From Phaeacidiphilus oryzae TH49 (lineage in GTDB: Bacteria; Actinomycetota; Actinomycetes; Streptomycetales; Streptomycetaceae), in NCBI RefSeq assembly GCF_000744815.1, contig NZ_JQMQ01000005.1, forward strand, positions 1,558,055 through 1,622,054: a DNA stretch of 64,000 nucleotides, written 5' to 3'. Each line of letters begins with the position of its first letter. The stretch's first letter is position 1. Position numbers and translations under genes: made by a program. Positions 9,756 to 14,427 of this stretch are shown piece by piece. Under the pieces are notes generated by a model. That model had not been told where the DNA came from, ran no database searches, and saw only the letters and a program-made list of their open reading frames with translations.

Positions 9756-10871
9756 CTAGGACTGGGAGTCCGCACCCTGCGGGAGCCCGTCCTCATCCCG
9801 CGGAAGCCCCTGCGGGAGCCCGTCCTTCCGAGGCTCCCCCGGCAGCCCGTCCCGGCCGGAGCCGCGGGCGCGGGACATCCAGGCGGCCGCCATCGCGCCG
9901 CTGACGTTGTGCCAGACCGAGAAGATGGCCGCCGGAAGGGCCGCGACCGGGCTGAAGTGGGCGGTGGCCAGGGAGGCCGCCAGCCCGGAGTTCTGCATCC
10001 CGACCTCGAAGGCGAGCGACCGGCTGGCCGGCCGGCCCAGACGGGTGGCCTTCCCCGCGCCGTAGCCCAGCAGCAGGCCGAGGCCGTTGTGGAGGACCAC
10101 GGCCAGCAGGACCACTCCGGCCGCGCTCTTGATGACGCCCGCGCTGCCGGAGATCACGATCAGCACGATGACCCCGACCACCAGCGCGGAGAGCCACGGC
10201 AGCAGCTTCAGCACCCGGCCGAGCCAGCGGCCGCAGAGCCACCGGACGAGCAGTCCGGCCAGCACCGGGACCAGCACCGTCTTCAGGATGTCGGTCATCA
10301 TCGCGCCGGCCGCCACATGGACGTACTCGCCGGCCAGCAGCCGGACCAGGGCGGGCGTGGCGAACGGCGCCACCAGCGTGGAGACGGTGGCGACGGAGAC
10401 CGAGAGCGCCACGTCGCCGCGGGCCAGGAAGGTGACCACATTGGAGGCGGTGCCGCTGGGCGCGCAGCCGACCAGGATCACGCCCGCCGCCAGCTGCGGC
10501 GACAGCCCCAGCAGATGGGCCACCGCCCAGCCGAGCCCCGGCATGATGACGAAGTGGGCGACCAGCCCGACCAGCACCGCCCACGGCCGGCGCCGGATGG
10601 TGGCGAAGTCCGGCGGCGTGAGGGTGAGGCCCATGGTGAACATCACCACGCCCAGCAGATAGGGGGTGGAGGTCGACCAGCCCTTGAACTCGCCCGGCCA
10701 GAAGAGGCCGATCAGGCCGGCGACGATGACCAGCACGGGGAAGACGGTCACGGCGCGGCGGGCGGCCCGGTCCGTGGCGGGGAGTTCGGTGGGCGGCTGG
10801 GCGGCGGACCGCTCGACGGTCGCCTCGCTCTCCGGGCCCCTCTCCTTGTCGGATCTCTGTTCGGTCGTCAT
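9756..10871 (-). CDS. bile acid:sodium symporter (BASS) family permease
   Basis: A 371-aa integral membrane protein with about nine to ten hydrophobic segments between residues 40 and 335. BASS hallmarks visible are MFTMGLTL, GCAPSGTASNVVTFLARGDVALSVSVA and FEVGMQNSGLAASLA. The N-terminal 35 residues are charged and cytoplasmic. The C-terminal tail carries a short repeated GLPxGxPR-type motif, which is unusual. The family moves organic anions with sodium, and the substrate here is unknown. TACGCT lies 6 nt before the ATG, which suggests a leaderless transcript. It is probably in an operon with the downstream aldo/keto reductase. Confidence 0.9.
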   Translation of the reverse strand: MTTEQRSDKERGPESEATVERSAAQPPTELPATDRAARRAVTVFPVLVIVAGLIGLFWPGEFKGWSTSTPYLLGVVMFTMGLTLTPPDFATIRRRPWAVLVGLVAHFVIMPGLGWAVAHLLGLSPQLAAGVILVGCAPSGTASNVVTFLARGDVALSVSVATVSTLVAPFATPALVRLLAGEYVHVAAGAMMTDILKTVLVPVLAGLLVRWLCGRWLGRVLKLLPWLSALVVGVIVLIVISGSAGVIKSAAGVVLLAVVLHNGLGLLLGYGAGKATRLGRPASRSLAFEVGMQNSGLAASLATAHFSPVAALPAAIFSVWHNVSGAMAAAWMSRARGSGRDGLPGEPRKDGLPQGLPRDEDGLPQGADSQS

Positions 10872-12477: not shown

Positions 12478-13341
12478 TCAGGCCGAGCCGCCGAGCTGCC
12501 GGGCGGCCGCGTCGACCGTCTGCGCGAGCAGCACCGCGATGGTCATCGGCCCCACCCCGCCCGGCACCGGGGTGATCAGGCTCGCGCGGGCGCTCGCCGA
12601 CTCGAAGTCCACGTCCCCGATGTTGCCCGGGTTGTAGCCGGCGTCGATCACCACCGCGCCCGGCTTGAGGTCCTCGCCGCGGACCAGCCGCGGGCGGCCC
12701 ACGGCGGCGACCACGACGTCGGCCTCCCGCAGCTCCGCCGCGAGGTCGCGGGTCCGGGAGTGGCAGTAGGTCACCGTGGCGTCCCGGGCGAGCAGCAGCA
12801 TCCCGACCGGCCTGCCGAGGATCGCGCTGCGCCCGACCACCACGGCCTTCCGGCCGGCGAGTTCGACCCCGTACTCGTCGAGGAGCCGCATGATCCCGCC
12901 GGGGGTGCAGGACTGGAAGCCGGGCAGCCCGAAGCCCATCGCCCCGAAGGAGTGGACGGTGACGCCGTCCACGTCCTTCGCCGGCGCGATCGCCTCGAAG
13001 GCGGCCCGCTCGTCGATGTGCGGCCCGACCGGGTGCTGGAGGAGGATGCCGTGCACGGCGGGGTCCTCGGACAGCCCGGTGAGGGTGTCCACCAGCTCCT
13101 CTGTGCCGGTCTCCGCGGGCAGCGCGAGGTGCCGGGACTCGATGCCCGCCTTGGCGCAGCGCGAGCGCTTCATCCGGACGTAGGTCACCGAGGCCGGGTC
13201 CTCCCCCACCAGGACGGTGGCCAGGCAGGGCGCGGAGCCGGTGCGCTCGGTGATCGCGGCCGCGCGGGCGGCGGTCTCCTCGGTGATCCGGCGGGCGAGC
13301 GCCGTCCCGTCCATCAGGCGGGCCGAAGCGGTCAGGGTCAT
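12478..13341 (-). CDS. folD: bifunctional methylenetetrahydrofolate dehydrogenase / methenyltetrahydrofolate cyclohydrolase
   Basis: FolD interconverts 5,10-methylene-, 5,10-methenyl- and 10-formyl-tetrahydrofolate in the cytoplasm and so supplies formyl groups for purine synthesis. The catalytic Tyr and Lys are in SVTYVRMK (near residues 54-58). KDVDG, the dinucleotide motif GRSAILGRPVG and PGGVGPMT near the C-terminus are all present, and 287 aa is a normal length. The start is ATG 13341 with GGGAGG upstream. A ZTP riboswitch occupies the leader, so expression should follow the level of the purine intermediate ZMP/ZTP. This fits the enzyme's role, because ZMP accumulates when 10-formyl-folate is short. 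Confidence 0.97.
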   Translation of the reverse strand: MTLTASARLMDGTALARRITEETAARAAAITERTGSAPCLATVLVGEDPASVTYVRMKRSRCAKAGIESRHLALPAETGTEELVDTLTGLSEDPAVHGILLQHPVGPHIDERAAFEAIAPAKDVDGVTVHSFGAMGFGLPGFQSCTPGGIMRLLDEYGVELAGRKAVVVGRSAILGRPVGMLLLARDATVTYCHSRTRDLAAELREADVVVAAVGRPRLVRGEDLKPGAVVIDAGYNPGNIGDVDFESASARASLITPVPGGVGPMTIAVLLAQTVDAAARQLGGSA

Positions 13342-13359
13342 GTCGCCTCCCAGGCGTCG

Positions 13360-13448
13360 TCGATGCTTCGCCCAGGCGCACGGCAGTGGTTCCGCCGGGC
13401 CGCTCCCCGGTGGTACTCCACCTCAAGCGCCAGTCACGGCCCGGGGCC
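13360..13448 (-). ncRNA. ZTP (pfl) riboswitch aptamer in the folD leader
   Basis: Read on the minus strand, the leader contains GGGCCGTGACTGGCG, then a short hairpin GGTGG-AGTA-CCACC, then GGGGAGCGGCCC, and 3' CCGTGCGCCTGGGCGAAGC. GGGCC at the 5' side can pair with GGCCC to close the first stem. The conserved CGTGACTGGCG, CCGGGGAGCGG and CGCCTGGGC blocks match the pfl consensus in order and spacing. Folate and purine genes are the established targets of this class. About 20 nt separate the aptamer from the ATG, so control is likely at translation initiation. The region was recognised by eye. Confidence 0.9.
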
Positions 13449-13491
13449 AACGGTACCCCCGATTGTCAGACCCCTGGGGCAGGGTGGTCGC

Positions 13492-14427
13492 ATGGACCAT
13501 CACCCCTCACTCGGCGGGCGGATCGCACTGGTCGCCGGGGCCACGCGCGGGGCCGGCCGCGCACTCGCGGTCGAACTCGGCCGCGCCGGCGCGACGGTGT
13601 ACGTCACCGGCCGCACCACCCGTGAGCGGACCAGCGAGGTCGGCCGCGACACAGAGACCATCGAGGAGACCGCGGAGCTCGTCACCGCCGCCGGCGGGGA
13701 GGGGATCGCGGTCCCCACCGACCACCTCGACGAGGAGCAGGTCCGGGCGCTGGCCGAGCGCGTCGACCGCGAGCGCGGCCGGCTGGACATCCTGGTCAAC
13801 GACCTGTGGGGCGGCGAGCATCTGCTCGCCGGCGGCTCGCTCTTCGGCCGCAGGGCCTGGGAGACACCGCTGGCGGACGGCCTGCGCATCCTGGAGCTCG
13901 GCGTCCGCTCGCACCTGGTCACCGCGGCCCTGCTGCTGCCGCTCCTCATCCGCTCGGACGCTCCGCTGCACGTCGAGGTGACGGACGGGACGGCGGCCGC
14001 CAACCGCCGCTACCGCGACAACCTCTACTACGACCTGGCCAAGAACGCCCCGATCCGGATCGCCTTCGGCCTCGGCGAGGAACTCGCGGACCACGACGGC
14101 ACGGCCGTCGCGGTCTCCCCCGGCTGGCTGCGCTCGGAGCAGATGCTCGCGCACTTCGGCGTCACCGAGGAGAACTGGCGCGACGCGACGGCCCAGGAGC
14201 CGCACTTCGGCATCGCCGAGTCGCCGTACTACCTCGCCCGCGGGGTCGCCGCGCTGGCCGCGGACCCGGAACGCGCGCGGCGCTGGAACGGGAGGTCCAC
14301 CTCCAGCGGCGAGCTGGCCAGGGTCTACGACGTCCGGGACGTGGACGGCAGCCGACCGGACTCCTGGCGATACCTGGAGGAGGTCGTCCATCCCGGCAGA
14401 CCCGCCGACCCGGACGCGTACCGCTGA
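13492..14427 (+). CDS. SDR family oxidoreductase
   Basis: A 311-aa NAD(P)-dependent short-chain dehydrogenase. The cofactor loop GATRGAGRALA is near residue 16, and TGRTT after the second strand suggests NADP preference. The catalytic YxxxK appears as YYDLAK near residue 183. The C-terminus is about 50 residues longer than minimal SDRs (WNGRSTSSGELARVYDVRDVDGSRP), as in members that act on larger substrates. The start ATG 13492 lies close to an upstream TTGTCA, so the transcript may be leaderless or nearly so. It is divergent from folD. The substrate is unknown. Confidence 0.88.
   Translation: MDHHPSLGGRIALVAGATRGAGRALAVELGRAGATVYVTGRTTRERTSEVGRDTETIEETAELVTAAGGEGIAVPTDHLDEEQVRALAERVDRERGRLDILVNDLWGGEHLLAGGSLFGRRAWETPLADGLRILELGVRSHLVTAALLLPLLIRSDAPLHVEVTDGTAAANRRYRDNLYYDLAKNAPIRIAFGLGEELADHDGTAVAVSPGWLRSEQMLAHFGVTEENWRDATAQEPHFGIAESPYYLARGVAALAADPERARRWNGRSTSSGELARVYDVRDVDGSRPDSWRYLEEVVHPGRPADPDAYR

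Follow-up and report, generated by a model that had tools for sequence, protein, structure and literature searches.

A ZTP riboswitch before a second folD of Phaeacidiphilus oryzae, with a P3/pseudoknot strand that probably doubles as anti-ribosome-site strand

The pfl RNAs bind ZTP and ZMP, a signal of folate shortage. An ordinary, well-supported member of this class (Rfam RF01750) lies on the minus strand before a folD paralogue, here called folD2, in the window, by which we mean the whole 64-kb stretch of P. oryzae TH49 DNA that was analysed. The computation establishes the aptamer, its location and a conserved complementarity between its strand CCUGGGC(G) and the region of the folD2 ribosome site. 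Our best explanation, to which we give a probability of about 0.77, is a ZMP/ZTP riboswitch that turns folD2 translation on, with the strand of P3 and the pseudoknot doubling as the anti-ribosome-site strand.

A full-length aptamer precedes a second folD

A covariance search with 4227 Rfam families matched RF01750 (ZMP-ZTP) at 13447-13363 of the minus strand over model positions 1-86 of 86, with 64.7 bits against a gathering score of 39 (E 3.3e-8, referring to both strands of 64 kb and all 4227 families), and this was the sole family match above its gathering score in the window. The original prediction had read a pfl/ZTP motif in a folD leader and named the Rfam covariance model as its check; the score and the full-length match bear it out. 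The predicted order of blocks was likewise recovered within 13448-13360 of the minus strand, namely CGTGACTGGCG, the hairpin GGTGG/CCACC, CCGGGGAGCGG and CGCCTGGGC, and the GGGCC/GGCCC closing of the first stem is present. The same match was returned before folD2 by a whole-genome covariance search. A chance motif is made unlikely by the covariance score together with the presence of the aptamer in the best 80 relatives. Features and their coordinates are collected in Table 1.

The gap between aptamer and ATG (13341) is 21 bases, and GGGAGG at 13351-13346 with the ATG at 13341-13339 agrees with the foreseen ribosome site about 10 nt 5' of the start. The folD2 product scored above both Pfam cut-offs (126.6 bits for PF00763 and 197.1 bits for PF02882), and among the best 25 of 32 NCBIfam models none reached its cut-off, the top one, PRK14192, giving 360.4 of 475. 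Its closest solved relative by sequence is the FolD 4b4u, and its nearest relatives are from Streptomycetaceae, with 79-83% identity. As a folate gene, folD2 falls within the folate, one-carbon or purine metabolism genes that lie downstream of RF01750 members.

The genome (7.8 Mb, the single genome sampled for the genus) contains another folD near purH, which is 44-46% identical to folD2 and reaches the NCBIfam equivalog PRK14193. This other folD was without a ZTP match in the whole-genome RF01750 search, and the only other genomic match (60.8 bits) stands before glyA, which is itself among the genome's three SHMT-like matches. Since the aptamer stands before folD2 and the other folD is without one, the riboswitch serves the spare folD. 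The prediction of a downstream folD thus held, also in the best 80 relatives, with the refinement that the gene is the second folD and not the one beside purH. By eye, the glyA leader (L005, 12992-13087 and 13117) carries a hairpin CCGGGUC/GACCCGG that extends into GGGAGG, the ribosome site, and the glyA start is overlapped by a very small reading frame with its own ATG upstream. The window also encodes a sodium/bile-acid symporter family protein (PF01758) at 9756-10871 (-).

Table 1 Features of the folD2 leader and gene (window coordinates)
Feature	Position	Strand	Basis
Probable -10 box TACCGT	13450..13455	-	TANNNT spacing conserved in relatives
ZMP/ZTP riboswitch aptamer (RF01750)	13363..13447	-	Covariance score 64.7 bits, gathering score 39
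P1, 5' strand	13436..13444	-	Pairs with 13403-13395; Rfam structure line
J1/2 GGCG, pseudoknot partner of CGCC (13378-13375)	13428..13431	-	Invariant in 78/78 rows
P2 hairpin GTGG..CCAC	13410..13421	-	Stem invariant in 78/78 rows
P1, 3' strand	13395..13403	-	Rfam structure line and alignment
P3 hairpin; loop and 3' side contain CGCCTGGGC	13369..13385	-	96.5% of cells paired
Switching strand CCTGGGCG; P3/pseudoknot when bound, anti-ribosome-site strand in the inferred free state	13369..13376	-	
Second copy of CGCCTGGG, pairing with 13376-13369 in the proposed 8-bp OFF helix; the GGG of this copy forms the first half of the ribosome site	13349..13356	-	
Ribosome binding site GGGAGG	13346..13351	-	Sequence
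Local hairpin CGCCU-GGG-AGGCG over the second half of the ribosome site	13344..13356	-	-6.4 kcal/mol with flanks, -5.3 alone
folD2, methylenetetrahydrofolate dehydrogenase/cyclohydrolase paralogue, 287 aa	12478..13341	-	Pfam PF00763 and PF02882

The aptamer is conserved before folD2

A scan of GTDB contigs gave 218 folD2 relatives, of which the best 80 were used. The aptamer lies directly before folD2 in all 80, being whole by pattern in 79 and cut by the contig end in one, L048; positions 1-60 of that contig look like partial aptamer joined to what we take to be sequencing-adapter sequence. For alignment we kept 78 distinct leaders, the window and 77 others, leaving out L048 and two loci with leaders identical to others. 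The Rfam structure was paired in 95.1% of 1794 cells, versus 37.5-51.2% with the partner slid. Helix 1, comprising P1 and two adjoining pairs, was paired in 91.0% of cells with two-sided changes at 4 pairs, and the J1/2-L3 pseudoknot was invariant across the 78 leaders. Shuffles attained the observed pairing percentage in 15 of 500 trials, the covariation score in 89 and the two-sided pair count in 307, because most of the motif is invariant; support for the aptamer structure is conservation more than covariation. In the folD2 leader of Streptomyces blattellae (L010, about 2891-2905) the 5' strand of P1 is lost and the TANNNT box stands nearer the core, the remaining core being intact.

A probable promoter at the foot of P1

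In 78 of the 80 leaders, the window included, the hexamer TANNNT stands 19-20 bases upstream of GACTGGCG, and 7% of shuffles show it anywhere 14-26 bases before GACTGGCG. Upstream of 2898, L060 is, like L010 only, without the box at this spacing, and its upstream sequence differs by eye. With TACCGT at 13455-13450 in the window, the transcript is expected to start at the foot of P1, probably near 13443. A strict sigma-70 scan found no promoter at the folD2 leader; such scans are often blank for GC-rich promoters. A short-chain dehydrogenase gene (PF00106; 13492-14427, +) diverges from folD2 at a distance of 150 bases, so both promoters probably lie in the common gap. Control of this gene by the aptamer was set aside, as it is encoded on the opposite strand.

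The ribosome-site region is complementary to the aptamer strand

A scan of the window leader found no terminator-like site in 13250-13560, and an intrinsic terminator between aptamer and start was rejected accordingly. Because the leader is short and without such a site, regulation is probably at translation. The aptamer strand CCUGGGC (13376-13370) finds its complement in the bases that lead into the ribosome site, mostly GCYCAGG and in the window GCCUGGG. We assigned 11 of 80 leaders, including the window, to class B (GCCUGG(G)AGG or a near variant) and the other 69, mostly GCYCAGGAG, to class A. The seven-pair OFF helix (columns 129-135 of leader alignment A1) was paired in 97.6% of 543 cells in 78 rows, three gap cells being set aside; with the partner slid by -3, -2, -1, +1, +2 and +3 the values were 18.5, 23.6, 48.9, 57.3, 43.5 and 31.9%. 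The helix is complete, with all seven pairs, in 56 of the 67 class-A rows; at none of eight slides does a single row complete it.

We then counted full seven-base matches to CCUGGGC, G-U pairs allowed, within 24 bases of the start. They were present in 66 of the 81 first-set leaders (window included), in 16 of 30 further distinct folD2 leaders outside that set and in 10 of 208 control starts carrying AGGAG or GGAGG. The 30 were what remained of 42 once 2 leaders in which no start was located and 10 duplicates of leaders in the count had been dropped; 15 of the 18 from the best-scoring loci were complete, as was 1 of the 12 picked outside the class-A pattern. In this count the start used for L100 seems misplaced by a few bases. 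At least six pairs were found in 80/81, 29/30 and 85/208, respectively. The full helix is therefore common without being universal, and a match of six pairs has little weight by itself. The weaker result in the further leaders led us to lower the odds of our best explanation from 0.80 to 0.77.

The letters before the ribosome site gave a second comparison, made with the 66 of 81 leaders that carry AGGAG 3-10 bases before the start (the 15 without it were dropped) and with other AGGAG-bearing putative starts, those of ORFs of at least 150 aa, in the same loci. GCYC stands directly before AGGAG in 55 of the 66 leaders versus 1 of 134 such starts, or, for distinct stretches only, in 42/53 versus 1/125. 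Position -1 is C in all 66, position -2 is T in 40, C in 25 and G in 1, and position -3 is C in 63 and T in 3, while all four letters occur at -5 to -14. A quick tree requires no fewer than 15 changes at position -2, a rough count, as 39 of its 79 inner branches are open. No two-sided covariation was seen in the OFF helix (78 rows), and letter shuffles attained the observed value in 500/500; both this and the one-sidedness of the changes arise because the aptamer strand is nearly invariant. The evidence for the helix is thus conservation among related species, with common ancestry, and conservation extends beyond it, since, after AGGAG, 59 of the 66 leaders have T at +5 and 55 have G at +6. 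Compared leader by leader with shuffles that keep the SD, the pairing energy was better at p ≤ 0.05 in only 26 of 80 (median p over the leaders 0.075; 0.060 for the window).

To imitate ligand in a crude way, we folded the leaders with their aptamer strands withheld, in a model without ligand or pseudoknot energies and with L048 outside the folding set. In class A the mean unpaired fraction of the SD rose from 0.29 to 0.49, with increases above 0.1 in 46 of 69 leaders and decreases in 3.

The complementarity implies that ligand binding should free the ribosome site, that is, a translational ON switch. In the free state the P3 strand CCUGGGCG (13376-13369) would pair with CGCCUGGG (13356-13349) and occupy the first half of GGGAGG. 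Binding of ZMP or ZTP would hold the same strand in P3 and in the pseudoknot with GGCG (13431-13428), releasing the ribosome site, so that FolD2 is made and more 10-formyl-folate follows. The transcript would begin at the P1 foot and control would act on translation; in the bound state GACUGGCG and CGCCUGGGC should be protected and 13356-13349 loosened. Induction of folD2 by ZMP is expected by analogy with the riboswitch class, and we infer ligand binding as well as the direction and size of the response in this leader. Freeing of the ribosome site, which the original prediction had put forward as the probable step, would be in keeping with the conserved complementarity of the P3/pseudoknot strand and with the window leader having no terminator-like site.

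A real aptamer could instead control transcription, with Rho-dependent termination or pausing in the leader taking the place of ribosome-site occlusion. The ZTP switches in the available text of PMC2864571 and PMC10907184 are transcriptional. Rho could also terminate a transcript stripped of its ribosomes. Against this, 13250-13560 holds no terminator-like site, the complementarity extends into the ribosome site, and control starts have other bases immediately before AGGAG; together these points make transcriptional control unlikely.

The window carries a variant of the probable platform

Translational ON switching, our preferred reading, would take a particular form in the window, where the aptamer (13378-13371) and the ribosome site (13356-13349) each hold a copy of CGCCTGGG. 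The latter, or second, copy can pair over 8 bp with the aptamer strand CCUGGGCG, with an MFE of -13.3 kcal/mol for the isolated stretch, and the OFF helix is complete, seven of seven, including two G-U pairs. That the second copy is a separate device was rejected: in the alignment it falls in the columns of GCYCAGG and, by way of two G-U pairs, makes the same helix. On the quick tree two changes are required for class B, the window standing beside Yinghuangia and apart from ten Streptomyces whose branching is left open there, and a single origin may be compatible with its supported branches; with so many open branches these origins, too, are rough.

In the window's class-B version the freed CGCCU could fold on AGGCG and keep the ribosome site hidden, so that the switch would be weak or even OFF. 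This hairpin persists in the modelled ON state, at -6.4 kcal/mol with flanks, and withholding the aptamer strands released little in class B (mean SD exposure 0.41 to 0.46; up by more than 0.1 in 4 of 11 leaders, down in 1). Both ON and OFF ZTP switches are predicted in the available text of PMC9481103, the OFF ones before moeA. On the other hand, the OFF hairpin is far more stable than the local one, in which GGG stays in the loop, and the window itself, with its OFF helix complete, went from 0.12 to 0.41 in SD exposure. In the window leader the ligand is accordingly expected, on the fold model, to swap a strong block for a weaker one, and we consider lost or reversed polarity in class B improbable, slightly more so than transcriptional control. 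A decayed relic without regulatory role in P. oryzae is very improbable: loss can occur, as the missing P1 5' strand of L010 attests, but by E-value the window aptamer is second among the listed matches from 394 family genomes, and it retains all invariant aptamer columns.

ZTP aptamers before other genes of the family

RF01750 exceeded its threshold in 303 of 394 family genomes, under stricter filters by which some weak matches are lost. Among the 29 top-scoring loci of this search (L086-L114, partly the same leaders as the best-80 set), 28 contain folD2, the remaining one, L109, being left unassigned. Another 40 listed matches, hand-picked from the best rows without a class-A pattern match and not a fair sample, comprised 14 before folD2, 14 before glyA and 12 without assignment by the same comparison. 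The glyA products of the 14 are about 80% or about 41% identical to P. oryzae glyA. Translation of three of the 12 (L126, L127 and L139) gave products that look alike, and that of L126 (216-1184) has an AICARFT domain (Pfam PF01808). Besides folD2 and glyA, the family would have a third type of gene behind ZTP aptamers, one for a stand-alone AICARFT-domain protein, which by its domain would consume ZMP itself. L120 carries a folD2-type aptamer and ribosome site, with ACG in place of the expected ATG and no folD2 match downstream, and is perhaps an orphan leader after gene loss. Exact patterns matched few family genomes (class A 56/394, strict class B 3/394) compared with 303/394 for RF01750, because the patterns are strict and many aptamers precede other genes.

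Discussion

The link between folD and ZTP riboswitches is not new and has been in print since 2010, when folD was listed among the five commonest pfl genes (Weinberg 2010, PMC2864571, available text). The window shares with the class a full-length match, core, P1-P3, pseudoknot and downstream folate gene. It differs in its platform, as predicted terminators overlap many pfl RNAs in that text (PMC2864571), whereas the window leader showed none and its platform likely targets the ribosome site. What is added here is the probable expression platform of the folD2 leader. In the transcriptional pfl ZTP switch of C. beijerinckii, as given in the available part of PMC10907184, a terminator strand invades P3 without ZMP. 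A downstream strand would likewise invade P3 of the folD2 leader when ligand is absent, but there the strand carries the start of the ribosome site instead of building a terminator. The covariation model of whole transcriptional ZTP riboswitches in the accessible text of PMC13273304 started from 187 terminator-bearing sequences, unlike the window leader with no terminator-like site. The discovery of the ligand is recounted in the available text of PMC7266159, and the parts available of PMC12452182, PMC10085676 and PMC7484762 contain nothing on the folD2 leader. A literature search, which took in few of the subscription papers, returned no description of a streptomycete folD leader that controls translation. 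Kim 2015, which reportedly defined the ligand, may already describe ribosome-site versions.

The ZTP leader of folD2 is short, and its sequence allows the aptamer's OFF partner to be read off directly and checked in dozens of species. It thereby offers a simple test bed for translational ZTP switching, for which the portion of the literature covered gave no worked example. A wider reading, to which we grant slightly less than an even chance, is that in Streptomycetaceae a compact translational ZTP platform, whose ligand-binding strand is also the anti-ribosome-site strand, governs spare one-carbon enzymes (the second FolD, one of several SHMTs and a stand-alone AICAR-transformylase-like protein) and leaves the ordinary folD free, making up a folate-stress isozyme set. 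For P. oryzae itself, our results suggest that a spare FolD is kept for folate shortage, with the folD beside purH outside such control.
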